From the NCBI RefSeq assembly GCF_026151205.1, contig NC_087077.1, positions 18,212,475-18,276,474 of the forward strand: a stretch of 64,000 nt of DNA. The letters run 5' to 3'. Origin of the DNA: Bolinopsis microptera. Its lineage: Eukaryota; Ctenophora; Tentaculata; Lobata; Bolinopsidae. The notes below the pieces were generated by a model that was not told the origin of the DNA, did not search any database, and saw only the letters and a list, made by a program, of their open reading frames with translations. A program made the position numbers and the translations under genes. Shown piece by piece: positions 1-63,949 of this stretch (its first letter is position 1; every line of letters starts with the position of its first letter).

Positions 1-480
1 AGCGATCCTTGCTATTCTCAAAACTTTGAGTGACTTGAACTTAGTGACATCTATAAACAGTTCTAAATAGTAGGGCCCCACAGTGAAGATGTCCAGCCAA
101 GTTGCTGGAGCTTTGGAAAAACTCAACTTATCGTAGGTTACCACAAATCTGAGCAGGACATCAAATGTGAAGTAGACAACTGTCACTGATTCCACAGCGA
201 AACAGACCTTGGCAGTGGTGGAATTTTTGTCCTCTAAAATGACCACTATGTTAGGATCAGTTTCGAAGAGCATGAGGATAATGGAGAGGCAGATACATCC
301 CAGGTCCATCCATCCGTAGAGCAGCCCGAAGAAGCTTGAACTGGGGTTCTGCAGGATGTTGTTGGTTTTCTGTCTGAGTCGTCCCATCTTTGTCTTGGCT
401 TCCACCGGAATCTTTTCCTCCTCTTCCTGTGCTTTCTCTTCTTCGAACACCGACATCATCCTGAAGAAGGTCACCGACTC
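1..480 (-). CDS. Kv exon: T1-S1 linker, S1, S2, S3, start of S4
   Basis: The exon begins after an AG acceptor (TTTCCAG/GAG) in phase 0 and stays open for 160 codons to the left edge. It reads ESVTFF (end of T1), then a run of Glu/Lys. S1 includes FGLLYGWMDLGCICLSIIL. S2 includes VVYFTFDVLLRF, with the aromatic and acidic residues expected of a voltage sensor. S3 includes WLDIFTVGPYYLELF, with the conserved Asp. S4 begins KSLKVLRIARIA. The next exon is outside the window. Confidence 0.9.
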
Positions 481-3400
481 CTGGAAATTCACAGGATTTA
501 GAGATTGTTCAAATAATACGTAGGCCCATCTGTAAGCCACTTTACATAGCAGATGGCTATTGTGTAGAAAGCTTTTCCAAACCCCTTCTAGTTCTACCCT
601 GTACGTAATATGCGAACGATCCTTTAGTTAATATTAAACAGGAAAACTGTTCCTGAAGAAACATGTGATAATGGTCACACACACAACCTTCTCCTATTAG
701 ATGTGTACACTAAAAGTGTACTCGAACCAGGAGAGTGTACATTATACAATGTACATTTGCTTAAAATGGCTTTGGTGGCCGGTGGGGTTAATTGATCAGG
801 ACATTCTATTGTTGCTAATTAACATGTCTTACTCCCATGTTGATAATGTGGGAATTTCAGTGATTAATATCATGATACCACGTGTATGTTTTAAAGTACC
901 TGGAACATCTCATTTGGGATAGTAGCTGGCTGATAGAGCTTGCCGTAGAGGTAAAAGTCAAATATACTCTCGAAGGCCTCAGGATTGCTGTCAAAGAAGT
1001 AGTCGCCGTGATGGGGGTCCCAGTGTGTGTCCAGGTCGGCTGATCCGAGCAGAGTTTGGGGGTACCTAGGATGGGGACGTCTGTGAATTTGCAATTTTCA
1101 GTAGATCCATCTAAAATATTGATGGTACCTTGGATATGTTTACTGCTAGATAAGAATATGTACCTGTAAAATTTTCCTAGGGATCATCTTAGAATTTGAT
1201 CAGTATTTTAATTGAGCAAGACAGCAGGTTGGGATATTCACCTCTCCAAGTAGTCTCTGTAAATCTGAAACTTCTTGCCGGACACGTTGATCAGTATCTT
1301 CTGTCCGGTGTGCGGTCCTCCAGCAGCTGTAGCGTCTCCAGGTGACCCAGATTGCATGTGCTTCGGCTGGTTGCTCGGACTCCCCGGGCAGTCTGCAAAA
1401 TATTCAGGGTTATATTCAGGACTTGAATTAAGTTTGTTCATGTTTAAAGAATTTATCAGTTCGACACATTAGATTTCATTCTCGTTCATATTCTGATCAT
1501 GGCATGGCTGTACGCTCATCTGTTGATGAACAAAGGAATGTATTATATATTATGTAGTATGTACTCTGTACCATGTAGTATGTACTATGTAGTATGTAGT
1601 ATGTACTGAGTGTTAAGGTGCAACTATTTAGTCAGCACACAGAAGTATTAAACTTACCATTATACACAACACGGGACATTATTGTGTAAGATTTACGCGG
1701 TTTGTCTGACGATATTAGAAAAATAATGGTAAATTATAGTAAATATTAATAATGGAATGAATAAGTAACTTTTCCTAGAAAGCTAATTCCAAAAGACTAC
1801 GATGGATTATTTTTTAAAAAATCTGCTTGACACGGTTCCGTTTATAAGCCGTAAAGGATTACATTTTATCAAGCTAAAATATAGACATTTTTCAAAACTT
1901 TTGGAATATCTTGTAAGTGGCAAGGCCGAACGTGACTTATTAACATTTTAGTGTTCAGTAGGAAGCAACACTGCTCTCGACAGACAACGGGAAGCAAAGT
2001 AAATGACTGGTGAAAACTAAATGAAATAATCGTGGTTTCGGCACTCGTTGGCATTTTACAAAGATTACTGCATATTACTGTATAGCAGCATAATACACTA
2101 CCGTGTATGTTTACTGTTTAGCCAAGTTGGGGTCCACCTTAATTAATTGTTTTAGGACTTAAGTTATATATAATTGGGCTCGCCTATGCACTACGTCAGT
2201 GAGACCCTTGTAATTTATAATCAGTCTGTCTGTCTGTGTATGTCTAGACACAGACAGAGACAGGGCGATGTGGTTGATTTGTATCCCTTGTCCTTATCTC
2301 TGCATTCAAGTGTAAGCTGTAGATCACCCTAGTAGTGGTAGATAGTAGTGGTAGATAGTCAGCCTACTGACTATCTTCTAAGAGTAAGTTTACAAGGCCC
2401 CACTTATCTCCATACAGTATAGGCATGACTGTTTGAGTGGCACCAAACCTCGGGTGGCTGCAATATTCTGCATGGATGTCCTGGCGTTACCCATAGCTAT
2501 AGGTAACTGTCAGAATCCGGCTTGACGTAGCGCCGTACCGTACCATGGCTGTGAACTTCAACCAAGGGTCCACTTCACAAGCCGAAGCCTCTGTTTTGAG
2601 CGGGAGGAATCGTACTCCATTCTCTGTCAGCCTGTCACATGCACGTGGTCCATCTATCACATGCTGGGCACTCATTAGAATGTGGTAATCGGAAGCCGGA
2701 TCCGGCTGTACTATTGCACTAACCATGCTAAGTGCTAACCCGTGTAGTGCAGTTTGATGAATGGCAATCACGCTAACTCGTGGATTCGACGGCCCTAAAC
2801 TTAATACCAACATATATATATATAATCAGTAATCTGCATATTACCGGGCGGTACTCGGCCTGTCATTCCACCATATCCAATATCTTTATTTGTATCGTGT
2901 TTATGACCTCTGGAGCATGAGATCCCCAGGTAATGATCTTAATAAAAGACCAATGAATGCCGAAAGGTCGATTATTATATTTAAGATTTAGTTTTCGCCA
3001 GTCATTTGCCTTGTTTCATTTGATCTGTCAAAAAACCGCGATGCTCTCTAATAAACACTACAAAAACTTTTGGGGAAAGGAAAAATATAAGGTAAATTAG
3101 GGTACGATAAAGCGGTATATCATTGCCAATGCAATACAATTACAAGAGCTAGTATTACAAAAATACTATTGACTATCTTTCTATACCAATTATAATATTA
3201 GTACAGTATCAATATACTAAGAACTAACTGAGGACCGAGGTTACTGACCTTCGCTTTTCGGCCTGATATGAGGCCACGGTGCGATTAAAAACCGCCTTCC
3301 TATCTCGACCCACGCAGCAATCATTTAACTTTAAGGACAGGATCAAAGATACTAATAGATCAGAGTATCAGACTTTCTTGTTTTTTATAGAAAACTTCTG

Positions 3401-4493
3401 CGTTTCAGTCTGTCTCGGTGTTTCAATGAACAGCAAATACCAAACTGCTACAACTACAAGGACCGGGAGAGTTCCACTGATTTTGGGAGGCTATCGAATA
3501 ATATTGATAATTGGAGAACTCTTTATCTAACTTCAGACTCAGTGATGGACTATTTCACCGTAAGTTAAACTTAAACGACTATTAAAAGCAAACTTCTAAT
3601 CATGATATTGATATGTTGCCCATTACATGTTGCAATTATCTGCAAGATACCGATACTGCATGGACTATAATTGGCTGACCACTCGCAGAGGCTAGGGCTG
3701 GTCAGGGTCTCGTACGCTGGAGGATCGGTCACGTGGTATGATACTTTGTAGACATTACCACGTTAAACTGCTTCCAACGTGTTAAGTTGTTGTATGTGGC
3801 GTTTAATTGACTTAGGTCAGGAACCTATACAGTATACACCTTTCGATAAAGTTCAAGGAATTACTTGAGTTGTTTCATCGATGAGTAATGAGTATAAGCT
3901 ATAAAATTTATGACGTGCTTAAATGTTACAAAGTCTCTATCATATTAAAAAAATTTTATGTGGCCTTTTTGTTATAAATATCAAAATTAATTGGGAGTCT
4001 AATTTCCGAAAAATAATTGAACAATTATTTAGATTTAATCTAAAGTTAAGGGAATATTTCGAACTTTGTATAAATAAAACTATAATTCGGGAGCATTGCA
4101 ATCCACTCCGAACACGTTAATTCGTAAACTAAGGGGTCGTTCACATATTACGTAATCATTTTTTGGAACATTTTTACCCCCCCCCCGTAATCAGTTTTAC
4201 ACATAGATATTGTGTCAAATTACACTAGCGTAATCAGTAATCATCCGCAAATCCCCCCTCAGCTGATTACATTTACGTAATATGTGAACGACCCCTAAAA
4301 GTAGAGATAGGATACAGTTACCATGACGACCAAAGTCATCCTGTTTCAGAAGTTCAAGGACCGATTCCCTCAGGATTCTGTCTCTTGCATGGATAGCTTT
4401 TCCCAGTTGTAGTTGCTTTGACTGCCTTGGCTCGATCCAAATATTGGCGTCCTGATGACTGTATATCTGACTATTTGTCCTGTGTCGAGGCAT
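1..4493 (-). CDS. Voltage-gated K+ channel (Kv) gene, 5' part, runs off the left edge
   Basis: Pore-forming subunit of a tetrameric plasma-membrane K+ channel. Exons, in transcription order, are 4493-4322 (putative first exon, ends phase 1), 1392-1242 (phase 1 in, phase 2 out), 1065-900 (phase 2 in, phase 0 out) and 480-1 (open to the window edge). Every junction has AG/GT and the phases match. Exons 2 and 3 encode the cytoplasmic T1 domain: KILINVSGKKFQIYRDYLER is followed by YPQTLLGS and the diagnostic DYFFDSNPEAFESIFDFY. Exon 4 encodes an acidic T1-S1 linker, S1 (about codons 52-75 of the exon), S2, S3 and the start of S4 with spaced arginines (VLRIARIA). The pore (S5-P-S6) lies outside the window. 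I see no HxxxxxC...CC zinc site of the Shaw/Shal/Shab T1, which favours a Shaker-like group, but S1-S3 are too diverged to assign a subfamily. Confidence 0.85.
900..1065 (-). CDS. Kv exon: core of T1 domain
   Basis: This 166-nt exon has acceptor CATCCTAG/G and donor CCAG/GTACTT. One nucleotide completes a split Arg codon, followed by 55 codons. It contains YPQTLLGS, the WDPHHGDYFFDSNPEAFESI block and GKLYQPATIPNEMFQ, the conserved second half of the Kv T1 (BTB-like) fold. The phases fit both neighbours exactly. Confidence 0.9.
1242..1392 (-). CDS. Kv common second exon: linker and start of T1
   Basis: The acceptor is the pyrimidine-poor but AT-rich TATTTTGCAG at 1393-1402, and the donor is GAGAG/GTGAAT. 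The 151-nt exon starts in phase 1 and encodes a Gly/Ser/Pro-rich linker (CPGSPSNQPKHMQSGSPG) followed by the first T1 strand (KILINVSGKKFQIY). An ATG at 1441 lies in frame upstream, just after an in-frame TAA, so the exon could instead be initiating. The clean acceptor and the match to the phase-1 exons upstream favour splicing. Confidence 0.8.
1443..4132. other. Kv intron between proximal first exon and common exon; no gene seen
   Basis: Mostly AT-rich non-coding sequence. It holds a short ATGTAGT/ATGTACT simple repeat at about 1545-1605, a GTCT/GACA simple stretch near 2224-2265, and a GC-richer patch at 2445-2790 with a 108-codon open frame on the minus strand that I do not recognise and do not call. 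Nothing else is supportable. Confidence 0.5.
4133..4295. mobile_element. PIF/Harbinger-like MITE, copy 1
   Basis: A 163-bp element bounded by inverted ends GGGGTCGTTCACATATTACG and flanked by TAA on both sides (4130-4132 and 4296-4298). A 3-bp TWA duplication with a G-rich end is typical of PIF/Harbinger non-autonomous elements. It has no coding capacity. Confidence 0.8.
4322..4493 (-). CDS. Proximal candidate first coding exon of the Kv gene
   Basis: The reading frame begins at ATG 4493 (MPRHRTNSQIYSHQD); an alternative in-frame ATG lies at 4571. It ends at donor GTCATG/GTAACT in phase 1. It encodes a hydrophilic tail with a basic/leucine-rich stretch (ARDRILRESVLELLKQDD), as expected for a cytoplasmic Kv N-terminus. 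Joined to the 1392 acceptor, it gives an uninterrupted frame. The sequence has no homologue I recognise, so the assignment rests on codon character, the donor, phase and position. A PIF-like MITE (4133-4295) lies in the intron immediately downstream. Confidence 0.55.
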
Positions 4494-4614
4494 CTGCTCG
4501 GGTATAGATATCACCGAAGAACGACGCAGTCTAAATAAATTGTGTACATGACACGTGGTGGCCATGGCCATCTCGTCAGAAGTGTGATTATCCTGCTCAG
4601 AAATAGTTTCAAGT

Positions 4615-4681
4615 TTGTTTCAAATAAAAAGTAAAGCAGTCTGCACTTGTGATTGAAAAGTAAAGCAGTCTGCACTTGTGA
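4615..4681. repeat. Tandem duplication of about 31 bp
   Basis: The word AAAAGTAAAGCAGTCTGCAC with its following bases is present twice in a row. A short local duplication in non-coding DNA. Confidence 0.7.
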
Positions 4682-4952
4682 TATGAATGTAAAGTTTTGA
4701 ATGCTGTTGGGAACAGACAATTTAAACTTTAAGCAGTACGCATTTCGCCTCCGAACTAATAACTATTTTGTATTTGAATTTTAAACTGTCACATGTCAAG
4801 CCAAAGGCTTGTAAAAAACAATATCAATATGTCAGTTTGATTATTATATTGTACAGACCAATTGTAAAAATTCAAAACTTTTGGCTATATGCAATATGGA
4901 CACCATACCATGGCAATACCATGGCAATGATTCAATTTCCCAATATGAATAA

Positions 4953-5123
4953 GGGGTCGTTCACATATTACGTAATCATTTTTGGAACATTTTTATCCCC
5001 CCTCCGTAATCAGGCAGTTTTGCACATACAACATAGCTATTGTGACAAAATTACACTAGCGTAATCAATAATCATTTGGAAACGGCCCCCTCAGCTGATT
5101 ACGTAATAATTGTGAACGACCCC
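4953..5123. mobile_element. PIF/Harbinger-like MITE, copy 2
   Basis: 171 bp with the same GGGGTCGTTCACATATTACG end as copy 1 and TAA on both flanks (4950-4952, 5124-5126). Similar along its length to the copy at 4133-4295 but diverged in the middle, so the two are independent insertions rather than one duplication. Confidence 0.8.
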
Positions 5124-5166
5124 TAAAATATTTGATTGATTCATGCTTAGGGTAGGGGGTGCGGCT

Positions 5167-6209
5167 CTTACTAATTCGCTCGCCCAAAAAATTTCACGTG
5201 ACTTTGGTTTTTATGGTTTTGCAGCCGTACAAAACGGTTTTACATAAACCCTTATCCCAACCCAAACCCTAACCATAACCCCGAAGCTAACCATAACCCT
5301 TACCACAACCCTATACTAACCCTAACACGAGCCTTGTAGGTTTACAACCTACCAGGACGCGCGCCGAGTTGGACTCGTCGGCGGTCCAATATATGAAACA
5401 GATATTTTACGAGTATTACCCGTTAACACGAGCCCTAAACAATCGAATTCGTATTTTACTAGCCTGTCACGTGACCAAACGGTTTTTTGCCCATAACTCT
5501 CCAGGGAAGCATTTTAACCCTACGTCATGGGGGTGATTCGGAATCAGCGTCCAAAATAAACCGATTCCAAATCACTTTCATGCCCAAAGGGCCTTTCACA
5601 AGAATTTTCTTAAAATTTGGGCGAGCGATTTTCATTTAGTAGGAGCGAGGGGGTGCACGATGAAAATAAACTTGTTTGGATTTTCAAAATTTGTGTAGCA
5701 TTGTTTTCTAAAAACTGCACTGTGAGAATTTTCACAGTACCAAATTTTTCATACATTTTTGGAATGATCAGTGAGTTTCGCCTAAGTGCCATATTTGATG
5801 GTGCGCGGCTTTTGGAGCAAAATTAGGTGTAAACGTCCGCTTCTACTAAATCGCTCGCCCAAATTTTAAGAAAATTCTTGTGAAAAGGCCCTTTTGGTAT
5901 GAAATTGATCTCAATCGGTGTATTTTTGAACGCTGATTCCGAATCACCCCCCATGACGTAGGGTAAAAAATGCTTCCCTGGAGAGTTATGGGCAAAAAAC
6001 CGTTTTGGTCACGTGACAGGCTAGTAAAACATGAATTCGATTGTTTAGGGCTCGGGTTAGGGTTAGGGTTGTGGTAAGGGCTATGGATAGCTTCGGGGTT
6101 ATGGTTAGGGTTAGGGTTGGGATTAGGGTTTATGTAAAACCGTTTTGTACGGCTGCAAAACCATAAAAACCGAAGTCACGTGAAATTTTTGGGCGAGCGA
6201 ATTAGTAAG
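5167..6209. mobile_element. Long inverted-repeat (foldback) element with telomere-like tracts
   Basis: Left arm from CTTACTAATTCGCTCGCCCA (5167) matches, inverted, the right arm ending at 6209. The arms are about 0.4-0.5 kb, with a spacer at about 5640-5840. Each arm carries degenerate CCCTAA/TTAGGG-type repeats (about 5248-5325 and 6053-6130) and a conserved stretch with CACGTGAC. The left arm is interrupted by a 93-bp element at 5334-5426. No ORF of note. I could not identify a target duplication, so the superfamily is open. Confidence 0.75.
5334..5426 (+). mobile_element. Miniature element family B, copy 1 (8-bp TSD)
   Basis: A 93-bp insert that starts TTGTAGGTTTACAACCTACC and ends CCCGTTAA. 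It is flanked by an exact 8-bp repeat CACGAGCC (5326-5333 and 5427-5434). The uninterrupted right arm of the host foldback shows the empty site. Inside is a strong hairpin-forming block (GCCGAGTTGGACTCGTCGGC). Confidence 0.85.
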
Positions 6210-6264
6210 TCGCGTAATTTGACGAAATTCGTTGATTTTTGTCGTATTATTTTATCATATCTTC

Positions 6265-6400
6265 GGTTCCTGGACTTGACCATTGTTAATGGTCTGGCCC
6301 GGCGCGCGCTACTTTGTAGCACTTGCCATCGGGCAAGTGCTACGAGAAGAAAGCGGCGTGCGCTACTTCGAAGAAATTTAGACGAGTACCATCCGTCAAT
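6265..6400 (+). repeat. Dispersed repeat family C, copy 1
   Basis: Contains a perfect 12-bp-stem hairpin (GTAGCACTTGCC...GGCAAGTGCTAC, about 6315-6342) followed by GCGCTACTTCGAAGAAATTT and GACGAGTACCATCCGT. The second half recurs at about 54080-54140. The 3' end resembles that of miniature family B (ACGAGTA-C-CATCCGTTA), which suggests a distant relationship. Confidence 0.5.
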
Positions 6401-6422
6401 TCCTGGACGAGAATCATGCTGA

Positions 6423-8628
6423 AAAATTTGACTGTAGTATAGGTGGGTATAGATATATCGTACTTCCGTGATTCAGACTTTGTCAAAGCAACGCACGCAC
6501 ATTGCATTTAGTAATAATTTATCCAACGCGAATCTTAAGCAATCGGTAGCAAATTTGATTAATCATAATCAGTGCGTTGTGTACATTGTTTTTCTAAATG
6601 TAAACGCTGAAAGTGAAAGGTGCATATGTAATAAGTTGATACTTGATATAGGTATATCGACTGTTTTGATTAAATAAATAATCAAACATATATTGAATGT
6701 GATATAATGTCAACTGTCAATGATGAATATGGAAGCAAGGTTTAGTGTGGTGAATCTAAAATGTATCGTATCGATAAAAAAACTCTCGCTACTGTTAATG
6801 TAAAATGTTATAGAACTGGAAGCAATGTAAAAGAAACAGTGAACTTGTACGAGAACAGGTTGGTCGTAATACTGAATACATGGTACCGGTGATAGCACGA
6901 CCAGGTGTTTACGTTCAATTCCATTTCAACACGTTGTCATTACGTTTCAGTTGACGACGCGATAGCTTGAGCTTTTAATTTTAAACGTATTATGTCATGA
7001 TATGAGAAGAATTTGTACGTGTAGTGTATGATATTGAATTTGATACAAGAGCAAAGTTTCATTTTTGCTTCCAATGTCCTAAATTGTTGAAATGTGAAAG
7101 TAATTAAGTCAATGTTTGTTCTTGATTTTATTTTTATGGCAACTGATTCTATTTTTTGTTCTTGTTATCGTGTTGCTTTGCATTTTTGACTGAGATTTTC
7201 CATTTTACGAACTGGTAATTATAAGTTCGGGTTATACTTATAGCCATTTTTTTCTAGAGTTGGGAAATTGAAAATTGAAAAACAGAATCAAACTGAATCA
7301 AATTTTTATACAGCAACCAAACATTGGAGAGCTGACCTGCAATCCCAGTGAACCGTGACAAAGGGTTAACTCTGGCTAAAAGTTGAGCTGTATTTGGGTT
7401 TAAAGTTTACTCATTATAATAAGAAATTATTTTTCTAACTTCCAGACACATACATTGAAACAGTATTTATCAGAATTTCAAATATAGTAGCCTAATACTA
7501 ATCGGCTGGATCCAAGTATGAAGTATAATGTAAAGTAGTGATGTTAGCGATGGGGGTTCGTTAATTCTGGTCAGGTAAGTCCGTTTGGCTACTTACTATA
7601 AGACTGAAATTATACTACTAGACTGAAATTTCTTAAAATGAAACCGAAAGTGATGGTCATGATGGGGTTTTGTTCCGTATTTAGTATTATAGTATCCCAT
7701 AAGTTAGATGGAATATATAAAATCAAAGCAGTACCGGTATTTTAGATTCAATTACTTTATGGAACTATATACTAGGACCGGGCACCAGCCCTCTCTTCGC
7801 CTATTCTCCCTATTGATTGTGTAACTGTAAGTGTAACAGTAAATATCGATGTTGCCTGATTGCTGATATCCTTTGATAATGATAAATGGGAATGAACTTT
7901 GCCAAAATTAGGATTTGGAAAAGTATAACTAAAATTATATTTCGATTAAATGGAAAAAATTGATATTAAGGGACTAAAGCTTCAGAAATCTTATCGGCGT
8001 CTTATTCTTTAATTACAGTAATTGTTCAGTCTCAGAGATGCACCATGGCCAAGCTGCAAAATTTGCTATTTTCATGCTTACTGGAACCCATGTTAGAGTG
8101 ACGGCACACACGGACAAGCCCTTGGCCTTATCCTGACTCCTATGACAGAACATAACCCTTTATAATGACCGTAGTTTATTACTATGAACTTAGTAGCTAT
8201 GCCAAGCATTTGTGTCACTGGTTGTCTTAGAGATAGTTTTAAAATTCATTTAAAAGAAGCCGTCCAGTAGTATTGCAGTTTGCACTGCAAGAAGGGTTCA
8301 CAAATATCTAGTTTAGTGTTTACCGATACGTTAAAATGACCGTGAACGTCTTATCCATGGCCAAACCGTACGCCTAACTGTTTGACCTAACCGTATGGCC
8401 TAAATAAATGATATGGACTAACCGTATGGCTCAGCCTTAACTATCAATGGTTATACAGTGGCACTGCTACTGTTCACCTATGTGGCAGGCATAGCTCTTA
8501 TCACACACAAAACTAAAAAAGCTGATCTCAAACAATAAGACTTTTTCTAAAATGAGAAATTGAAAACATTTTATGTTATAAATTATCATTATGTTATATA
8601 TTGGTACTACTACTATGCCATGATGGCA
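6423..8628. other. AT-rich intergenic or intronic stretch, no feature seen
   Basis: Both strands were read. No ORF with recognisable content, no terminal-repeat element and no tandem array was found. It lies within the putative long 5' intron of the Kv gene if the distal first exons are used. Confidence 0.5.
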
Positions 8629-9066
8629 AACAACCGTTCCTTATCCGTGCGTTAACCGTTCCTTGTCCGTGCGTTAACCGTTCCTTATCCGTGCGTTAAC
8701 CGTTCCTTATCTTGTATCACGTTGCGACCCCCGCGGTCGTTTCACTTTATCGTCCTGACGATACAGGGGGAGCCGCGCACTTCGTGCGCGGCGGGTCATA
8801 CAACGTATGACAATCCTTATCAATATCCGTGCGTTAAGTGTGACTTTACCGTGCGTTAAATGTTCCTTATCTGTGCGTTAAAATTTAACGCACGGATAAG
8901 GAACATTTAACGCACGGTAAGGAACGGTTAACGCACGGACAAGGAACGGTTAACGCACGGATAAGGAACATTTAACTTAAATGTTCCTTATCCGTGCGTT
9001 AACCGTTCCTTGTCCGTGCGTTAACCGTTCCTTATCCGTGCGTAAAGTGTGCTTTTACCGTGCGTT
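8629..9066. repeat. Array of a 22-bp unit that changes orientation
   Basis: The unit CCGTTCCTTATCCGTGCGTTAA and close variants are repeated head-to-tail at about 8629-8711. After a family-A insertion they continue to about 8882, run in the opposite orientation at about 8883-8970, then in the original orientation to about 9066. Variation is mainly TTATCC versus TTGTCC and GTTAACC versus GTTAAAT. No coding sense. Confidence 0.85.
8712..8813 (-). mobile_element. Miniature element family A, copy 1 (8-bp TSD)
   Basis: A 102-bp insert bounded by TTGT...ACAA ends (TTGTATCACGTTG on one side, TTGTCATACGTTG on the other). It is flanked by exact TCCTTATC (8704-8711 and 8814-8821), a sequence that belongs to the surrounding 22-bp array. 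Contains a hairpin CCGCGCACTTCGTGCGCGG. Shares its body with copies at 10107-10210 and 11542-11650. Confidence 0.85.
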
Positions 9067-9401
9067 ATGTGACCATCGACAGATTACCGAATTGCCCAAT
9101 AGTCAACAAATTTCCATAGAACTTGAAAAACGAGCAACGAATTTGCATAACGAAACAGAATCCCGGCGCATTTGTTATTACGGGAACCGAACACTACGGT
9201 GGAGTTTATGCTTCACTTCTATGTTCTATTATTCTATTATAATACCAGATTGTGACTTATGATCGACTTTATGACCCACTGTATTTCGATTCTTCCGGTC
9301 GTTAAATAAACAGAACAACGGTTACTATACTGATACAGTAGGTGGGTAGTCTGCTGCTGATAACCAATAACCGCGGATAAACTCTAATGACTCGTTTCAT
9401 A

Positions 9402-9519
9402 TTGTAGGTTAATAATAATAACTATCAAGACACGCGCCGAGTTGGAAATGGAATCGTCGACGGTCTTGATTTGGACGGTAAATATTTTGAATAAATATTT
9501 TACGAGTATCACCCGTTAA
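9402..9519 (+). mobile_element. Miniature element family B, copy 2 (8-bp TSD)
   Basis: 118 bp, starting TTGTAGGTTA and ending ACGAGTATCACCCGTTAA, between exact copies of GTTTCATA (9394-9401 and 9520-9527). The centre keeps GCCGAGTTGGA...TCGTCGACGGTC. It is longer than the other copies because of an AT-rich insertion near each end. Confidence 0.85.
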
Positions 9520-10106
9520 GTTTCATAAATATGTGGTTATGGACTTAAACTCTGAAGCCACCTTAAGTCGATCAGTATGTACGAGTAGGAATGCATATTT
9601 GATATTATTTGAGACCTGATTGTTTCTTTAACTTTCGATTTACCTACTATTCAGGAGTCCTGTCTACTGTTCACCACTTAAGCTCGGAAATTGAGAAACT
9701 TTCCGACTGCAACTGGCTAAGTGGTCTGACTGGCCTGACTATAGTCACGACAATCTAGGAATATAGGAAGCTTACTAAAACTGTTTATTTCTTCAGATTA
9801 ACAATCATTGGCTTTAGCAATGTAGTCCGGACATCATGCCCTGCCTTGAATCGTATGTACAATGTAACACTAACTACTGTAGTACTGTAGGTATACCAAC
9901 GAATAAGCCCTTCAACAATCAACAAGTTCCATTTCATTTGACCAGATATCAACTCTACAGTCTACACTTCATATCCCACTCTTAATGTTTTACCAGTGGC
10001 AGTACTAAACGTTCCATTCTTAATTCTTCTCCATTTTTTTTCACTACACCCTCATAAATAGAATTATCTACGATTTTTCCCTGCACTAATTAATTAGTAT
10101 TACTGG

Positions 10107-10210
10107 TTGTCATACGTTGTAGACCTGCCGCACACGAGTGCGCAACTGTATCGTGAAACACGATACTAGTGAAACGACAATGCACAATGGGGGGTCACGA
10201 CGTGATACAA
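10107..10210 (+). mobile_element. Miniature element family A, copy 2 (8-bp TSD)
   Basis: 104 bp, TTGTCATACGTTG to ACGTGATACAA, flanked by exact ATTACTGG (10099-10106 and 10211-10218). Contains two short hairpins (GCACACGAGTGCGC and GTATCGTGAAACACGATAC). Confidence 0.85.
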
Positions 10211-10595
10211 ATTACTGGTATATCGGCACATTGATCCATTTATTGGACATTTATCAACAAGACTGTTGAGTATCTGTATATGGTCTAGCTATAGCTTCAT
10301 GTATTTGAGAACATTATGAAAATCCTAATACTCTTACAAAAAAGAAAACTATACATTCTGCAATAGCCCCTTTCTATTTACAAATTCGAAGAGCAAAAGT
10401 GGCCCTCCCCTTGTCAATATTTACACTTACAGAATACCAAGTCATTTGTCAAGTACTGAAGTACCGGCTGAAACCCACCCTCGACGCCCCCCTGCTGCCC
10501 CGCATAGTAGTGGTTGTTATAGTTCATAGTTATTATACAACTCTTTAAATTGTTATATAAAATTAAGTATTTTGTATTCGAAACGAAAACCATAC

Positions 10596-10803
10596 CTGAG
10601 CGGCCGATGAGGGTGGACACGTGCAATGCCATTGGTACCGGGATACGTCCTGATCTACGTTTGTTCTTGGACATATCCACCGGCCTTCTCGGCCCTTCTT
10701 TGTTCGTGGATCGTGAGGCATTGGCCTTGTTCGGCTTCTCAATGTTCACGGGAGGTTTGTACTCAATAAACGAGTGAGACACCCGTCGGGCGATAGCATA
10801 CAT
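10596..10803 (-). CDS. Alternative first coding exon of the Kv gene (middle)
   Basis: ATG at 10803 opens 69 codons plus one base, ending at donor CGCTCAG/GTATGG in phase 1, the same phase as the two other candidate first exons. The region is clearly richer in GC than its surroundings. It encodes a basic N-terminal tail: MYAIARRVSHSFIEY at the start, a Lys/Arg-rich middle (NKRRSGRIP) and HVSTLIGRSG at the end. It resembles the exon at 13759-13987 at both ends (M-x-x-x-x-RR-x-S...FIE and HVS-S/T-L-x-x-RSG), so the two probably arose by exon duplication. The next compatible acceptor seen downstream on this strand is the Kv common exon at 1392. An unrelated gene is possible, but no other partner exon is visible. 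Confidence 0.5.
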
Positions 10804-10810
10804 CCCAATA

Positions 10811-11541
10811 GGGAGGAAGAGCTGGTTTTATAAAAAGCAGACAAATCCTACGAAAATAAAGAGCCTTAAAAAGGCTTTGAAGTTGAACCGGAACAGTTGC
10901 ACTCGAGTATGTGCAATAGGGAACACAATAGTTGAGAATGCGAGTCTTGATTGTTTCAGTTACTCTCGATAATCAATAACATTTGCACGTGATGCATTAC
11001 CCGGCCGGCGGCCACAATAGTAAATGAGTCGGAAGTTCGGAAATGCTTAAGGTCGTCGTTAGTTAAGCAGAAATGTCCGTATAGTATAGCAGAAAGCATT
11101 TAATACATCATTTGTGAGTTAGCCTATGTACACGTGCTCGGTTTATGCGACTTGATGCGGTAACGCTGTGACAAATGAACTCTGTCGGCAAGGTAACGCC
11201 CACTTACATAACTATCTTGACAATGATACAACTTCCTGGTCTGGGATCCACCGCGGTTTTGTATATATAATATATAAATATTTAGAACTAAGGCGGTCTT
11301 TAACTAATTATCTTTATTTTTGTAACTCTATAATTATAAGTAAGTAGAGCATAATTTCTATTATAGTAGCATTTACTCTTAGAACTAGTAGTAGTTGTAG
11401 CAGAATCTACAGTAATAATATTGGCATCATGAAAATCAAAAATGCCTCGATAAATTGCATTGTAAAAAACAAAAACTTGCGAAAGGGTCCTATAACTTCG
11501 AACGATGAAAATGTACTGATTCTGATGTCTGAGTCATCACC
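10811..11541. other. No gene seen
   Basis: Non-coding sequence upstream (on the minus strand) of the middle Kv first exon, so a promoter could lie here. I can point to no TATA box or initiator with confidence. Confidence 0.4.
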
Positions 11542-11650
11542 TTATATATTATATATGGCCCGCCGTGCACGAGTGCGCGACCATATCGTGGCTTTCGCCA
11601 CGGTATTGAATGTTCAATGAAATGACGATGATGATAACGACGTGAGACAA
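11542..11650 (+). mobile_element. Miniature element family A, copy 3 (degenerate)
   Basis: About 109 bp with the family-A core GCCCGCCGTGCACGAGTGCGCGAC, a hairpin ATCGTGGCTTTCGCCACGGT, and the end ACGTGAGACAA. The left end has decayed and no target duplication is visible. Confidence 0.6.
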
Positions 11651-12417
11651 TTTAGCTTAGCATATGGTAAGAACGCATCTCTTGGCATAAGGTCAAGGAG
11701 TTTAATGGGCGTAAAACACTGCTTTGTTCAAAGGTGTGACCGTTTCGTGTGCAAAACCATACAAATCTAAGTCACGTGATTATTAAAAGAACCATAAACT
11801 ACTGTTTACACTTACACTTGATAAAGTGTTATCTATAAAAACGTACGGTCCATGATCTAAGTAGGGTCTTAAAAATTGAAGAATCAGAATCAGATTTATC
11901 AGAAATTGAAAATGCAATATGTGCTGATCGAGACACTTAACTGACAAGCTCAAAGTCAATGTTCATCAACGTAATCTGGCCAATAGTGTATTTGATTGTT
12001 CCTCTAGGTAACCTGGATTACATTGCAGACCATTGAAGATGAATTACAATTTTGGACAACAGTTTGAAAACAATATCAGATTGGCCTATTCTAGGTTTGA
12101 AAAGTACTAGTTGTCATACCATGATACCATGCTCGATTAAAAATTACCATTGTAGGTTTATAGGGTTTATAACCTTGAACCTGTTAAATGTTATACTTAT
12201 ATAACATTTCAAACAAATACTGTGCGGGTTATTAAGATTTCCAGCCTGATAGTGTTTTGCTCTCCTCCCACTACATTATTTGGCACCCCTCCAAAGAATA
12301 TGCCGCACTCGTAACCCACTCTGTTCTATCAGTATCACTGAAAAAGACACTTCAATTCTGGAAATCACTTGACTACAGTTAATTTCAACTACAACCTATA
12401 GTACCTATAGTATACGA

Positions 12418-13235
12418 GTGGCTACTAGCCGGCTACTAGCCGACTAGTAGCCACTTTTGTAATAACAGCTCCTCAACTTCACATTACCAAACCGGCTACT
12501 AACCGGCACTTAAAAAGTGGTCACTAGCCGGCTACTAACCGGCTAGTAGCCGGCTAGTGACCAGAAAGTGGCTACTAACCGGCTACTAGGCGGTCACTAG
12601 CCGGCTATTAGCTGAGCTCTAAAGCAGACCTACTTTCTCGAGGTTCCAAACCGGCTACTAGCCGGCACTTGAGAAGTGGTCACTAGCCAGCTATTAGCTT
12701 GGCTCTAATAGACCTTAGTAGCCGGTTAGTAGTCGGCTAGTGACCGCTTTTCAAATGCCGGCTAGTAGCCGGTTTGGGACCTCGAGAAAGTAAGTCTATT
12801 AGAGCCAAGCTAATAGCCGGCTAGTGACCGGTTAGTAGCCACTTGGTGACTACTAGCCGGTTAGTAGCCGGCTAGTGACAACTTTTCAAGTGCCGGCTAG
12901 TAGCCGGTTTGGAACCTCGAGAAAGTAGGTCTGCTTTAGAGCTCAGCTAATAGCCGGCTAGTGACCGCCTAGTAGCCGGTTAGTAGCCACTTTCTGGTCA
13001 CTAGCCGGCTACTAGCCGGTTAGTAGCCGGCTAGTGACCACTTTTTAAGTGCCGGTTAGTAGCCGGTTTGGTAATGTGAAGTTGAGGAGCTGTTATTACA
13101 AAAGTGGCTACTAGCCGGCTACTAGCCGGCTAGTGACCACAAAGTGGCTACTAACTGGCTACTAGGCGGTCACTAGCCGGCTATTAGCTGAGCTCTAAAG
13201 CATACCTACTTTCTCGAGGTTCGAAACCGGCTTCA
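12418..13235. mobile_element. Foldback element built from GGCTACTAGCC words
   Basis: An inverted repeat with arms of about 300-390 bp around a centre at about 12715-12790. The arm sequence ACAGCTCCTCAACTTCACAT (about 12467) returns inverted near 13075-13100, and CTACTTTCTCGAGGTT (about 12630) returns inverted near 12910. Each arm is full of short partially palindromic words (GGCTACTAGCCGG, GGTCACTAGCCGG, GGCTATTAGC). Past the right arm, 13140-13235 repeats about 12567-12658 in direct orientation. No ORF. Confidence 0.75.
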
Positions 13236-13758
13236 GATAAAACTGAATACAGTAAAGCAACACCGCAGTCAAATAATATAAAGATAACAAATGCTGTATT
13301 TAAGACATCCTTTGATCCCATCTGACCGATTCATGAAGCTGTGTGATAAATGTAATTAGGTGCAACTGACAGTGACAATGATTAAAAGTTTTAATCGTAC
13401 TTATTGTGAGCAGTGAGCACGAACGCCAGCTCGCACGTTATCGAGTCGCAATAAATAAGAATTTTTTTATAGACTGCACAGTAGTTAAATGATAATAGTT
13501 ATATCGAAGTGCTGAAGGGTAATACGATCTTGGCCCAATGCTGATCTTTAGCACATATCATTGACATAAATATTATTTATACTCGTGACGCTAATCTTTC
13601 TACTTCGATCGCGATCCCATTTTCTTGATTATGGAGCTTATTAATACTACCGTAGTTGTCGCAATTACTTGTACAAATATATAATTAAAAAAGAAAATAT
13701 ATGCTTTATTTTTACTAATAATTGCACCATTGACTTAATTGTAACCTTATGAACTCAC
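13236..13758. other. No feature seen
   Basis: AT-rich spacer immediately downstream of the distal Kv first exon on the minus strand; part of its presumed intron. Nothing supportable on either strand. Confidence 0.4.
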
Positions 13759-13987
13759 CTGAACGTTTATAAAGACTTGAAACATGTTGAGCGATTGGTC
13801 TCTTAGTCTGGTTTCCCAACTTTCGTTCTCCACTCTTATTTTCATCTGATGTTATCCCTCTCATCTTTTTAGAAGATGTCGATTCATCATCCGGCCCATT
13901 TAATGTAATCTCTCTAGACTCATCAGGGTTATTGTATTCGTAACCCTTGCCCTCAATAAAGGAAAATCGCCGAACAAGTAAGTGCAT
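13759..13987 (-). CDS. Alternative first coding exon of the Kv gene (distal)
   Basis: ATG at 13987 (MHLLVRRFSFIEGKGYEY) opens 76 codons plus one base, up to donor CGTTCAG/GTGAGT, phase 1. The frame stays open a little upstream to another ATG at 14011, but alignment with the exon at 10596-10803 supports 13987. The tail is acidic and serine-rich in the middle and ends PIAQHVSSLYKRSG. Its relation to the middle exon and the shared phase suggest it is used as an alternative N-terminus of the same Kv gene, from a promoter upstream of about 14 kb. Confidence 0.5.
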
Positions 13988-16154: not shown

Positions 16155-18134
16155 CTAGTCGTTGGAGTGGCCTGCATCACACACATCTCTTCTACGGCGT
16201 AACATGTTCCTCCATTCCACTCGCTTTAGAGCCAACTGTTTTACTGCATCTCTGCTGATGTTATCGACACCTGTAAATTCAGCCGCATCCTCGAGTACAC
16301 AGGCCATCCAGCCTTTGCGGGGTCGTCCTCTCAGTCTCTTTCCATAGTTTGGTTTCCAATCCAGTAAGAAATTGGGGAACCGCGTCTCTGGCATTCTGAC
16401 AACATGTCCGTATCACCTTAGTCTATCCGCACCGATGAAAGTTTCGATAGACTTAATTCCAGCACGCCTGAGAACTTCTTCATTGGAGACATGGAAGAAC
16501 CATTTTATCTTCAAGATTCTTCTCAGGGAGGTCAGATGGAAGACCTCAAACCGTTTCATCTGCTTCTTTGTTGTGTTCCACACTTCAGCTCCATATAACA
16601 GAATAGTAATAACAGCAGCCTTGTAGATACGGATCTTGGTGGGCGTTCTTATAGTTCGACTGTTCCATATCTTCCAAAGCTGATGAAACGCACCATTAGC
16701 ACGCTGGATCCTGATGTCAAGATCTCGGTCAATGGTACCATCCCCACTGATGTTGGCACCAAGATAAACAAAGTTGCTGACCTGTTCAACAGGTTCTCCC
16801 TCCACTGTTAGCTTTATACTGTCTCTTTCGGTGTAAGGTCGCTGGGACGCACACTTGCTGATCGCCATGCATTGTGTCTTTTTAGCGTTGATCTTCAACC
16901 CAGCATAAGAGGTGTAATAAGCTATAAGATCAGTGGACTCTTGCAGCCCTTCTTCAGTATTGTCCATCACTGCCAGATCATCAGCGTAGTCACTATCCAT
17001 GATAACTTTTTCATCTGCACCCTTTAGTTCCTTTTGCAGTACAGCACCATGACTGATTGCCTTGTGAACCTCGGCCAAAAAGATTCCAAAGTTCAGACAG
17101 AAATTAAATACAGGAGGGCCCTGGATATCACCCTGTCCAGTGCCCGAATTAACAGAGAACCAATCAGACATTTCACCATTCACCCTGACAGCACTCATGG
17201 TTCCGTTGAAGAATGCCTGAAAGATTCTAACATATTTCTCAGGAAGTCCATAGTGTCTCATGCTTGACCAGATAAACTCTCTTCTGATGGAATCAAACGC
17301 TGCCTTAAAATCAATGAAATTAACATAAAGTGGAATGTTAAACTCAATGCAGTTGTGAATAATGGTGCGGATGGAATAAATCTGATCAATACATGAGCGG
17401 TTCCGTCTGAACCCACACTGATTTTCCCTAAGAAGACACTCCATTCCAACATCCAGCCTCTTAAGAAGAACCATTTGAAGAACCTTAGAAGACGTTGCCC
17501 TAAGAGTTATACCCCTATTATTGCAGCAGTATGAGGTGTCTCCCTTCTTTCCGATAACCACTATAACACCTTTAAGCCAATCCTCAGGGATCACCTCTTC
17601 CTCCCATACCTTTTTAAACAGTAGCTCTAGTTGGCCAACAAGAGCACTTCCACCATACTTAAGTTGTTCATTAGTTATCTCATCAACCCCTGCACTTTTG
17701 CAGTTCTTCAGTTTCTTTAGAGCATAACTAATCTCATCTCTAGAAGGAGGTCCATCAGAACAAGAAAGGTAGTCAAAACTCGGTTGTGAGGGCACACCAT
17801 CGAGGTCATCAAGATTGGCATCCGATAGTGGAGGATTTAAGAGCTCAGTAAAGTGCTCCTTCCACCTTTCCTTCTGACTGTCCGGGTCTGTAATAAAATG
17901 ACCATCCTTATCCCTAACTGACATACCCACTTTCTTCTTCTTTTTCCCAGAAATCGTCTTTATCTTATCCCAAACTTCCCTTTGCTGGCCTTTCTTAGAA
18001 GCCTCCTCTAGATCAGTCGCTATTTTAGTAGCCCAGTTGTTGTCGTCAATTTTACAACTTTTCTTAACTAATTTATTAAGTTTAGAGTAGGCTGATCTAT
18101 TGACGTTTGAAGTGGGATCCCTCCGTTTGAACAT
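16155..18134 (-). pseudogene. RTE-like reverse transcriptase, one nonsense codon
   Basis: Copies element RNA into DNA by target-primed reverse transcription. The frame from 18134 to 16155 is uninterrupted except for TGA at 16413-16415, in the context ADRLR-stop-YGHVVRMPETRF. Related elements have Trp there, so a single TGG-to-TGA change explains it. Visible RT motifs are KSAGVDEI (motif near palm), CNNRGITL, FIDFKAAFDSI (first catalytic Asp), GTGQGDIQGPPVF, the catalytic SDYADDLAVM, GLKINAKKTQCM and LYGAEVW. The C-terminal part ends in GKRLRGRPRKGW and a Cys/Arg-rich tail. The first residues (MFKRRDP) are not a real start; the frame continued from the endonuclease before the MITE arrived. Confidence 0.9.
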
Positions 18135-18142
18135 TCCCCGTT

Positions 18143-18449
18143 CAGTGGCGTAACGAAGGGCCCCGCTGACCCCGCTGTGCAGGGGGGCGCCGTCTTAGGG
18201 GGGGCGCCAAATCGTCGTTTGAATGTGGGACAATTTCGAAAACTTAACTAAAGTACTAGCAAAACTGCGCGTTTTGCTCTAGATACACACTTTATTAGAG
18301 ATTTTACCGGCGTATCCTCTAAAATCACCTAATTTGTTCAATTTTAGGGAGGGGCACCAAAAGGGGAGGGGGCGCCAACAGGGGGGCGCCTTTTCGGCGG
18401 GGGGGGGGGGGGGGGGGGGGGGGCGCCAACAGGCAACGTTACGCCACTG
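18143..18449. mobile_element. hAT-type MITE inserted in the LINE
   Basis: 307 bp with perfect 13-bp inverted ends (CAGTGGCGTAACG) and an exact 8-bp target duplication TCCCCGTT (18135-18142 and 18450-18457). The inside is rich in GGGGGGCGCC blocks and holds an uninterrupted run of about 25 G (18399-18423). Removing it and one TSD copy puts the flanking LINE frames back in register, so it inserted into an intact ORF. Confidence 0.93.
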
Positions 18450-18457
18450 TCCCCGTT

Positions 18458-19619
18458 GCTCTATCAAGTTCTTAGAGGTTTGCGAAAGGTGTTGTTCTTT
18501 AACCTTCCGGGGACGCTTTCCAAGCACTTCCATCGAGACATCAGTGACTGTCTGCTTGAAATTATCCCACATGTCCTCAAGGTTGACCTCATTAGCCAGA
18601 CAATCAAAACGGTTCTGAAGAGCCACGTTGTACTCTTGAATCTTAGACGAGTTTCGCAAATGTTCGATAGCAGGCACATCGTGCCTTTTAGCAGTGATCT
18701 TAGCTACCGACTGCAGTTTGATTTGCAGCCGTCCACGAACAAGATAGTGATCTGAACCAATGTCCGCCCCACGACATACATTAACATCGAGTAGCGAGTG
18801 TTGGAATCGTCCACTAATACAAATATGATCTATTTGATTCACAGTTAACCCGTTGGGAGACCGCCATGTACCCTTGTAGATGTCTCTATGCTGGAACAGA
18901 GTTCCACCGATAACAAGTTGATTGGCTGCACAGAAATCCATGAGCCTGGTCCCATTGTCGCTTGATGAACTATGGAGAGATTCTCCACCAATAACTCCCT
19001 CGAATCCATATCTGTTTGAAGTAACTTTTCCATTGAAGTCACCCAGTAGCAGTTTCAGATCATGTCGGGGCAGTTCACCAAACGTGTCTGATAAAACGTT
19101 GTAAAAACGATCTTTCTCTCCGTCATCAGCACCGTCAGTCGGAGCGTAGGCTACAACAACAGATATGTTGAGGTGTTTGCCGTGTAACCTAGCTGTTAAG
19201 ACCCGCTCTGATGTAGGTACATAAGAGATCAGGGAGTTCCTGACCTTTTTGGAAAGACATAGGCCAACCCCTTGCCTTTTGATACCATCTCCCCTACCAG
19301 AATGAATAAGTAGACTACCATTGTCCAAAAGTGTACTTCCAGATCCTGGCATATGAGTTTCAGTAATACCCAAAATATCAAGACTGTAGTGATCAATGTT
19401 CTGACTGAGTTGATAAAGCTGTGAAGATGAGCTGACTAAAGATAAAACATTCCAGGTTCCAAAGTACATTGAGTGTTTGCTGTAGTTGATAGGATTGGAC
19501 TTGCTGAAATCAGTGTCAACATGAGCGATCTGTTGACTAATTACTCTGTTGTTATGACGAGCAACCACTCTTCTCATCAGGCCACTGGGGTCCCTGAGGC
19601 TTTGCCCAGTTGCCGTCAT
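18458..19619 (-). pseudogene. RTE-like LINE endonuclease domain
   Basis: Endonuclease/exonuclease/phosphatase-fold domain that nicks the target DNA for LINE insertion. Starting at ATG 19619, the motifs are FGTWNVLSL (first strand), GITETHMPG (catalytic Glu), VVVAYAPTDG, LLLGDFNGKV (Asp-Asn pair), VNQIDHICISG and ADIGSDHYLVRG (catalytic Asp-His). All the usual catalytic residues are present. The open frame as read today runs into the MITE and ends at 18279 after a proline run, so the last 58 or so residues are MITE-encoded. Similar to host proteins mis-annotated as craniofacial development protein 2-like, which are themselves LINE-derived. Confidence 0.9.
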
Positions 19620-19948
19620 CCTGGTCTCACCCGACCTCGCAGAGGTAGAAGCACACCGTCCTTGATTTGTGTGTAATGTTTCAGTAGCAAACTTTTAGAG
19701 AGGAGAAGTTGCCAGCATCTCGCACCCGGTTTTTATCGACCTTTGCCTGTCTAGATCCATAGTGTTTTGTTGCACGTCATCTGTTTATACTGGAGTCACC
19801 CAGGACAGATTACAATGCTTAATAGTAGCACCTCGAAAAGGATGTGATTCTTCATCACGCACTATGGTCATTGGAATAGGAGAGGTTATTGGCTTCACCG
19901 CCTTCACGATCACTATTCCCTGAGATTATAAATAATCTCTTGCCACCA

Positions 19949-47301: not shown

Positions 47302-49144
47302 TTAGACAGTAGTCAGATCACGTATACCAAGCTTAGGCACAATTACGTTCCAAATACGAGCCGTTCTGCTATTGAAGTTGTCAGGGGGGTCTGCTTGGCT
47401 CAGTATAAGGGTGGGTTTCCTACTTGAGCAGGTGAAATTTTCATGGAGGGAAATCGGAGCACGGAATTTCATGATTTTATAGAGCTCAAGGAAACAATGG
47501 TAAGTGTACAGGTTTTGGACGGCAAGTATTCCGTGTTCCTTGAACAAAGGTTTCGTGTGCTCTTTCAAGAAAAATTTTTTGTTCAGATTTTGGTTGCCAA
47601 ACGGTCGAGCACGAGCACAGGTCTTAAATTTATCTAGGTATGCCTCCCTGTCGCCAAACAGTACCCTGAGACAATATTTTTGTGCTTTGAATACAGAACT
47701 TATACGAGTTTTGGCTGCCCCACCCCAAACCGTGATACAATAGGAGAGGTGTGATTCAAATAGAGTGTAATACAACTGGCGGTGTAAGAAATCTGGGAGG
47801 GAGCAGCGTAGGCGGCAGAGAGTTGATGTTGCATGGCTGAGAGAACGCCTAAGTGATTTTAAATGTTCTTCCCAGGTTAGCTTTTCATCGATGACGACTC
47901 CCAGAAACTTAGCAGATGCAACTTGTTTTATTGGAAAGTTATCAATGGTTAGAGTATATTCAGAATTATTGTCAGTCTGGGAGGACGATGCTGGTTTGAA
48001 GTGAATGAAACAGCATTTAGACATGTTGACATGGAGTTTGTTTGCTCGCATGTAAGAATATAAACTAGCTAAAAGAGAATTACCACGCATATATGCCTCC
48101 TTTTTAGATTTCCCAGTCACAAATATATTGGTGTCATCAGCGAAGGTGACAAATGATCCCAAACTGGAGCTGTTGGCGATATCATTAATATATAGGAGAA
48201 ATAAGAGAGGTCCAAGAATCGAACCCTGAGGGACTCCAAACTGTATTTTCAGAGCGTCAGATTTCTCACCAACAACTTCAGTATATTGTGATCTATTTGT
48301 TAAGTAACTTTTTGTAAGATCATTTGCCACCCCACGTATCCCATAGCCCTGTAATTTGACAAGTAATGTACCATGATCTATTGTATCAAAAGCTTTGCTA
48401 AGGTCTATGAATATGCCTAAGACATGATGCTTAAGTTTTAGAGATTCAGTTATAAGGTTTACTGAGTGATTAACTGCATGTGAAGTAGAGTGTGACTGCC
48501 TGAAGCCAAATTGTGTTTTAGATATTATACCCTGTGAGCTAGCAAACGAATATATTCTTGAGTAAATGATCTTTTCAAAGATTTTACCAAATATAGAGAG
48601 AGTAGAGATTGGGCGGTAGTTTTCTATCTCTTCAGGGTTTCCATTCTTAAATACAGGAGTTATTCTACCAGTCTTTAGAACGTCGGGGAACGTGCCATTA
48701 GACATTAAGATGTTGATGTATCGACTAAGGATCGGTGTAATTACGTGAGATGATCTTTTGATTACACTAACAGGAATATCACTTGCTTTTCCATTTTCAA
48801 ATCCTTTTATTATTTCCGTTATCTCATAAGGTGTACAGTCTTCTAACATAATCGATTTTTCATTAGTCTTTCCAAGGAAATCATAGAATGTTTTTATAGG
48901 GAGAATTGGTAAACCAGAGGCCTCACTGCTACTAAGTGTTTCATTGAGCTTAGGGGCAATAGAAACAAAGTAGGAGTTGAATCCATTGGCTATGACTCTA
49001 CGATTCATGATTCGTTCGTTGTTTATGATAAAGGGAGGCTTAGTTTGCTTCTTTTTCTTGCCCCTGAGCTCATTGATTATCTGCCACGTTTTTTTGCTGT
49101 TTTCTATATTTTTATGGATTTCATTGCAGTAGTACGATCGTTTG
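47302..49144 (-). pseudogene. LINE reverse transcriptase (CR1/Jockey-type)
   Basis: The RT domain is intact as a frame. Motifs: ENYRPISTLSIFGKIFEKII, TQFGFRQSHST, GIFIDLSKAFDTIDH (first catalytic Asp), GVPQGSILGPLLFLLYINDI, the catalytic TFADDTNIF, and KFLGVVIDEKLTWEEHL. The C-terminal thumb region includes SHLSYCITVWGGA. The first 12 or so residues of the apparent 626-residue ORF (before KRSYYCNEI) are encoded by the hAT element, not the LINE. Cannot move by itself because it has no endonuclease. Confidence 0.9.
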
Positions 49145-63883: not shown

Positions 63884-63949
63884 TTCGTTTTGATCTAAAA
63901 CTTTAACATTCTTAATAAGGTTTTGAATGTTAGTAAAAAGGCTTATATT
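61643..63949 (-). mobile_element. CR1/Jockey-type LINE, 5'-truncated
   Basis: The minus-strand open frame extends upstream of the first Met (63883) to an in-frame TAA near 63950. It begins in the last part of the endonuclease (NIQNLIKNVKVLDQNE then MSDHF) and continues through a complete RT to the stop at 61643. Most of the endonuclease is missing, so this is a typical 5'-truncated insertion. Confidence 0.88.

Follow-up and report, generated by a model that had tools for sequence, protein, structure and literature searches.

The window analysed here is a 64,000-nucleotide stretch of the Bolinopsis microptera genome (C6:18212475-18276474) that carries, on its minus strand, a gene for a voltage-gated potassium (Kv) channel of the Shaker superfamily with a T1 domain, six transmembrane segments and a TVGYGD selectivity filter. 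The gene runs off the left edge of the window into the adjoining locus, L001, which carries the rest of it. To the right of its common T1 exon at 1392 lie three exons, here called N1, N2 and N3, each of which opens with an ATG. We consider it quite probable from the sequence that these are alternative first coding exons, at least three in number, for one Kv channel, each spliced to 1392, with N-termini that may tune inactivation.

The Kv gene and three candidate first exons

From the 1392 exon onward, the common part of the channel comprises 405 residues, read across the window and L001, that contain T1, S1–S6 and TVGYGD. In the joined protein, Pfam recognises BTB_2 (PF02214; E 6.2e-15, 55.8 bits against a cut-off of 21.4), with T1 preceding S1, and Ion_trans (PF00520; E 3e-34), and both the filter MSTVGYGDIAP and a charged S4, KVLRIARIARVLKLIKK, are read in the sequence. 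The T1/BTB_2 domain, the six-helix ion transport domain, and the TVGYGD filter together with the charged S4 place the protein in the Kv (Shaker) superfamily. Its closest solved structure, among the best 60 of 218 matched sequences, is Kv4.2 (E 6.2e-49, aligned over residues 33–402 of the common part). Channel identity, exon anatomy, junction phases and the homologies described below are direct observations. The exons are as follows, with a slash marking each splice junction.

1..480, minus strand: Kv exon, T1 end to S4; runs on into L001 (S4–S6, pore TVGYGD) left of the window
900..1065, minus strand: Kv exon, further T1 (YPQTLLGSADLD...NEMFQ); protein continuity and splice sites judged by eye, BTB_2 match in the joined protein
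1242..1392, minus strand: Kv common exon, about 31 linker residues and the start of T1 (DCPGSPSNQ...KILINVSGKKFQIYRDYLE); phase-1 acceptor TTTTGCAG/AC
4322..4571, minus strand: candidate first coding exon N3, 83 aa + 1 nt (MAMATTCHVHNLFRLRRSSVISIPEQMPRH...DDFGRH/G); donor ATG/GTAACT, phase 1
10596..10803, minus strand: candidate first coding exon N2, 69 aa + 1 nt (MYAIARRVSHSFIEYK...LHVSTLIGRS/G); donor CAG/GTATGG, phase 1
13759..13987, minus strand: candidate first coding exon N1, 76 aa + 1 nt (MHLLVRRFSFIEGKG...QHVSSLYKRS/G); donor CAG/GTGAGT, phase 1

On re-reading and recomputation, N1, N2 and N3 each begin with an ATG and end with a G at phase 1 before a GT, so that three ATG exons have donors matching the phase of one shared acceptor. 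Since the 1392 exon begins with AC, the junction codon G/AC encodes Asp in every case. An earlier note on this DNA had described three minus-strand ATG exons with phase-1 GT donors and a phase-1 acceptor at 1392; its coordinates, ATGs, donors and phases hold, as does the acceptor, and only the start of the third exon needed revision. The note had placed that start at 4493, a Met that is residue 27 of a frame reaching back to an ATG at 4571. Because similarity to a paralogue already starts at residue 9, ahead of this Met, 4571-4322 is the better N3 exon.

Joined to 1392 via N1, N2 or N3, the predicted channels have 481, 474 and 488 residues, respectively, and differ only in the 69–83 residues that precede the common linker. 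The open frame upstream of each ATG contains AG dinucleotides at one, one and three sites for N1, N2 and N3, all in phase 0, and no phase-1 acceptor lies between the frame start and the ATG of any of the three. The complete exons would thus be mutually exclusive rather than serial.

N3 and its counterpart in a paralogue

Genome-wide searches covered 264.65 Mb. The three paralogues that we examined (C8:6.711 Mb, C6:16.20 Mb and C6:4.64 Mb) are 52–59% identical to the Kv common part over the matched stretch and share with it both the phase-1 acceptor and the Asp at the junction. Ahead of the closest of them, at C8 (59% identity over residues 104–324 of the common part), lies a frame homologous to N3, found by tblastn with an E of 7e-10 in a 23 kb locus and of 3.3e-5 genome-wide. 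This exon ends AATTTAG/GTAAGC in phase 1 and is separated by an intron of about 760 bp from a T1 exon with a phase-1 acceptor, CAG/AT. We also scanned the DNA upstream of all three paralogues for frames of at least 30 and at most 260 aa with a donor score of at least 3.5, using shuffles as a reference for the similarity scores (means about 22–25, standard deviation 4–5). For the C8 paralogue, where the scan took in 59.75 kb, the N3-type frame scores 105 against N3; the next-best frame, at 35 against N1, is long and lies 44 kb away, and we take it as chance. No first exon was identified in the 39.45 kb upstream of either C6:16.20 Mb or C6:4.64 Mb, where the best scores were 27 and 37, the latter from a long Ser/Pro-rich frame compared with N3. 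Because a homologous exon with matching donor and acceptor phase precedes the C8 paralogue, N3 is, on this homology, a real Kv first exon and an ancestral one, common to the gene and its closest paralogue. Two copies of an element resembling a miniature inverted-repeat transposable element, with ends like AGGGGTCGTTCACATATTACGTAATCA, flank N3 at about 4130-4296 and 4950-5124; as seen by eye, one of them starts about 25 bp past the exon end.

N1 and N2 as a distal pair

The two distal exons are related to each other in protein sequence. Aligned globally, end to end, they score 47 against a shuffle mean of −18.4 (z 6.4), a value reached in 0 of 5000 shuffles, and their local alignment score was reached in 3 of 5000. 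The likeness at both ends that had been noticed earlier is borne out, with the first 9 aa matched in 73 and the last 13 aa in 0 of 100000 shuffles, these blocks having been picked after alignment. N1 and N2 share 26 identical residues, and at 17 of them the two exons use different synonymous codons. Differences at the three codon positions number 30, 27 and 47, a third-position excess with p 1.7e-4. The same procedure gives p 0.28 for N1–N3 and 0.12 for N2–N3, so the excess is no artefact of aligning the exons as proteins. We read N1 and N2 as coding sequence of some age that selection has preserved, and, as judged from these comparisons, the pair is an old tandem exon duplication. Neither appears clearly like N3: the N1–N3 global score was equalled in 2082 of 5000 shuffles, and for N2–N3 the figures are 36 of 5000 globally but 1339 of 5000 locally.

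The earlier suggestion that a promoter was duplicated together with the exon survives in its exon half only. A blastn comparison of the roughly 1.7 kb surrounding each of N1 and N2 gave a best E of 1.3, which is no significant DNA similarity; only the encoded protein is conserved, and we rejected the promoter half. In a coarse first look at the genome, which diverged copies may escape, N1 and N2 each matched only themselves at E ≤ 10. A pattern built from their exon ends (30 places, at most one mismatch) has six matches genome-wide against seven for a control. Two of the six are N1 and N2 themselves; C13:12819248 and C2:7858893, considered as further copies, are short frames that lack a start exon and are taken as chance; the remaining matches are C3:14213850 (exact) and C13:12818374. 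Between N1 and N2, at 12418-13140, lies a foldback of ACTAGCCGGCTA-type units, with 279-nt arms that are 97% complementary and 165 nt apart, which could pair in the pre-mRNA.

Chance and coding tests

How often such frames arise by chance depends on what is asked of the donor. On the coding strand, 14.6 kb of sequence holds 5 frames of at least 50 aa that run from an ATG to any GT in phase 1; the opposite strand holds 4, and 200 Markov sequences have a mean of 3.9, which makes the bare pattern ordinary. Requiring a donor score of at least 4 leaves 3 frames on the coding strand of this stretch, compared with a mean of 0.374 in 1000 Markov sequences, 4 of which reached three. This threshold was fixed after the exon scores were known, so the filtered test is supportive, not decisive. 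Firmer support for all three exons comes from homology.

For codon usage, a model built from the longest stop-to-stop frames at 13 Kv-type loci proved too weak to decide. N2 scores 12.1 bits, the highest of five candidate frames of at least 50 aa. A wider scan for codon scores above zero returned nine rows: three for N2, one for N1, three for frames of long interspersed nuclear elements (LINEs) and two for short frames (63723 and 3324). N3 is missing from this list because its score is negative.

Proposed joining of the first exons to the Kv gene

The proposed arrangement is one in which translation would start at the ATG of N1, N2 or N3 itself and each first exon would be joined by a phase-1 splice to the shared T1 exon at 1392, the N-terminus being selected by the choice of transcription start or of trans-splice site. 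The earlier note had proposed one channel with three swappable N-termini, and this is still the best reading on the grounds of N3 paralogy, N1/N2 homology and phase; joint use of the exons, including splicing of N1 and N2 to 1392, we infer from position, strand and phase. Any transcript begun at N1 or N2 would head toward the Kv exons. In the interval from 10.6 to 1.4 kb, inspection by eye of the open frames of 60 aa or more picked out no other minus-strand gene. The next recognised gene beyond Kv, a plus-strand gene that converges on it, encodes an RRM and FoP_duplication protein (RRM_1, E 5.8e-15, exons joined by eye), which we take to be ALYREF-like. The Kv gene is the likely partner of N1 and N2, given the shared junction phase and the lack of any other gene recognised downstream to which they could be spliced. 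At about 3380-5620 of L001, apparently within an intron of the convergent RNA-binding gene, a long minisatellite is seen by eye; its repeat unit (GGTAAAGTACCCCCAAAATACTGGGACCAGAATACCGAGCTGATCCTACGTGTCCCA-like) measures about 57 bases.

N-terminal features and a possible role in inactivation

The predicted N-termini start with MHLLVRR (N1), MYAIARR (N2) and MAMATTCHVHNLFRLRR (N3). Over the first 20 residues their net charges are +1, +2 and +3, respectively, versus −1 in the exon of the C8 paralogue. Each contains an RRx[ST] motif within its first 25 residues, a motif that was noticed before it was tested and that recurs in shuffled sequences at rates of 0.031, 0.048 and 0.036. We take RRxS to be a site of the protein kinase A type. 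The T1 domain would begin at residue 107, 100 or 114 in the N1, N2 and N3 forms. No Pfam family matched the three termini above cut-off; one match, to N2, lay below it (E 0.056).

A passage of PMC12460158 describes the non-polar N-terminal end of Shaker as plugging the open pore, and one of PMC3634772 describes ball peptides as hydrophobic with positive charge and as disrupted by phosphorylation; from these passages we drew the criterion of a non-polar N-terminal end followed by positive charge. The three N-termini may tune fast inactivation; each has a non-polar start, then a basic segment with RRxS, on a tether of about the length found in full-length Shaker. Tuning of inactivation is our preferred guess at what the N-termini do, one that we would expect to hold in about one case in three. 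A bolder proposal, which we regard as rather unlikely, is that this ctenophore Kv gene independently evolved Shaker-like swappable gating peptides, three of them or perhaps four with the candidate at 3324-3249 described below. A non-polar tip and a kinase-type RRxS in each of the three would then let start choice and phosphorylation jointly set inactivation, in a lineage whose Kv channels are believed to have diversified apart from those of other animals.

Alternative readings

Several observations weigh against three alternative first exons that tune inactivation. Plain tblastn relates N1 to N2 with an E of only 0.23–0.29 (72 kb locus), no N1/N2 homologue was found beside another Kv gene, and the link of the pair to this one consists of position, strand, phase and mutual likeness, with N1 lying 12.4 kb away from the common exon. 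Phase-1 AGs inside the exons (four in N1, three in N2, two in N3) would allow serial joins that lose the exon start, and acceptor scores upstream of the ATGs, from a model built on 11 sites, are uninformative. The codon scores of N1 (3.6 bits, with another frame at 5.7) and N3 (−1.5, with another frame at 4.7) indicate that codon use does not discriminate. As to function, the C8 paralogue exon lacks RRxS and its start is not basic, which speaks against a conserved inactivation role, and T1 begins at residues 56–58 in the shorter Shaker constructs. In an alternative arrangement, N3 alone would be a Kv first exon, and N1 and N2 would start a separate minus-strand gene that escaped recognition, perhaps a small one nested within the Kv gene or located ahead of it. 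The unclear relationship of the pair to N3 and the lack of any N1/N2-like frame in the 59.75, 39.45 and 39.45 kb upstream of the three paralogues agree with such a gene, as do the nested genes that a passage of PMC8527503 describes as common in a ctenophore genome. We nevertheless think a separate gene improbable: both exons match the Kv junction phase, the interval down to 1.4 kb yielded no minus-strand candidate by eye among frames that were not subjected to a family search, the next recognised downstream gene is on the plus strand, and two tandem homologous start exons without a body of their own suggest a common downstream body. A further reading takes N1 and N2 as chance frames or as decayed ones, left over from an exon duplication that has fallen out of use; it would accord with the near-neutral codon score of N1, the ordinariness of bare ATG-to-donor frames and the high tblastn E values of the pair. 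This we hold to be very unlikely, since both frames are open with start and donor kept, and the synonymous codon differences at 17 of 26 identical residues point to selection on the protein.

A different question is how one N-terminus would be chosen. The exons could be alternative second exons, selected by spliced-leader trans-splicing or by joining to a shared upstream non-coding exon, a tentative possibility that is compatible at the protein level with three alternative first coding exons, so that the probabilities of the two overlap. According to PMC8527503, trans-spliced leaders are frequent on ctenophore mRNAs; for that reason start choice may lie in acceptors rather than in promoters. 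Each ATG does have at least one AG before it within the open frame, all of them in phase 0 as given above, and a Hormiphora-type leader end shows a mild genome-wide excess, with 103 matches versus 70 for a reversed-pattern control. On the other hand, the 11-site acceptor model, itself uninformative, scores no ATG-adjacent AG above zero, and the window holds no exact match to the leader end and four one-mismatch matches versus a chance mean of 8.9.

Relation to known systems

Alternative N-termini are a known way for one Kv gene to yield currents that differ in inactivation, and the textbook case is Shaker, where, as in the arthropod Kv1 genes, alternative splicing concerns the N-termini. The set of three first exons proposed for the ctenophore gene is Shaker-style N-terminal variation and hence of an already known kind. 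As in Drosophila Shaker (Kv1), one Kv gene would supply alternative N-termini before a common T1 and core, and T1, which starts at residues 97–99 in the longer Shaker chains (9zs7, 8teo, 9nec and 9nes), would start at 100–114 in the ctenophore channel. The two differ in that the ctenophore channel belongs to another Kv clade, its closest solved relative among the best 60 of 218 matched sequences being Kv4.2. Passages of PMC9989356 and PMC3634772 cite the alternative splicing of both Shaker and the arthropod Kv1 genes.

Within the same best 60, Kv4 (KCND) provides the best solved-structure match over T1–S6, a likeness that does not establish Kv4 orthology. These alignments began from T1, with the common part as query either alone or with the fourth candidate in front; in Kv4.2, T1 begins near residue 41, in contrast to 100–114 here. 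For DPP6, an auxiliary subunit of Kv4, a passage of PMC3366920 describes N-terminal variants that arise by alternative mRNA initiation in a Kv complex. The variable part there is on the auxiliary subunit, whereas in the ctenophore Kv it would be on the pore-forming subunit itself. Among the matches listed in a search of open-licence literature (titles and abstract starts), a scope outside which the main ctenophore Kv work lies, there was no report of alternative first exons in ctenophore Kv genes. If true, the arrangement in this ctenophore would add convergent evidence that evolution readily exchanges the N-terminus ahead of T1, and the gene would allow direct testing of start choice.

Other candidates and elements

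A possible fourth start exon, which is unproven, lies between N3 and the common exon.

3249..3324, minus strand: unproven fourth start candidate, 25 aa + 1 nt (MIAAWVEIGRRFLIAPWPHIRPKSE/G); donor AAG/GTCAGT, phase 1

It has a non-polar start followed by RR and is the sole ATG frame of at least 12 aa with a donor score of at least 5 from 10.5 kb to the common exon. The Markov mean for such frames is 0.003 (1 of 300 sequences), the thresholds having been picked post hoc. In the genome it matches only itself. Another possible start exon, MALRRNSLIIPKMYEKFG, near 5790-5740, was rejected; it has a poor donor, GTACTG, and is located between the arms of nested inverted repeats.

The interval between N2 and N3 also contains repeats. 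An inverted repeat at 5184-6193 has 130-nt arms that are 95% complementary and 750 nt apart, with more inverted repeats nested inside it, and TTAGGG-like runs at 6048-6140 overlap one of its arms. An array of CCGTGCGTTAACCGTTCCTTAT-type units at about 8614-9077 contains a palindrome at 8918-9034 whose 58-nt arms are 100% complementary and 1 nt apart. Farther along the window, long minus-strand open frames at 16413-19694, 47302-49182 and 61643-63949 look by eye like the reverse transcriptase and endonuclease regions of non-LTR (non-long-terminal-repeat) retrotransposons.

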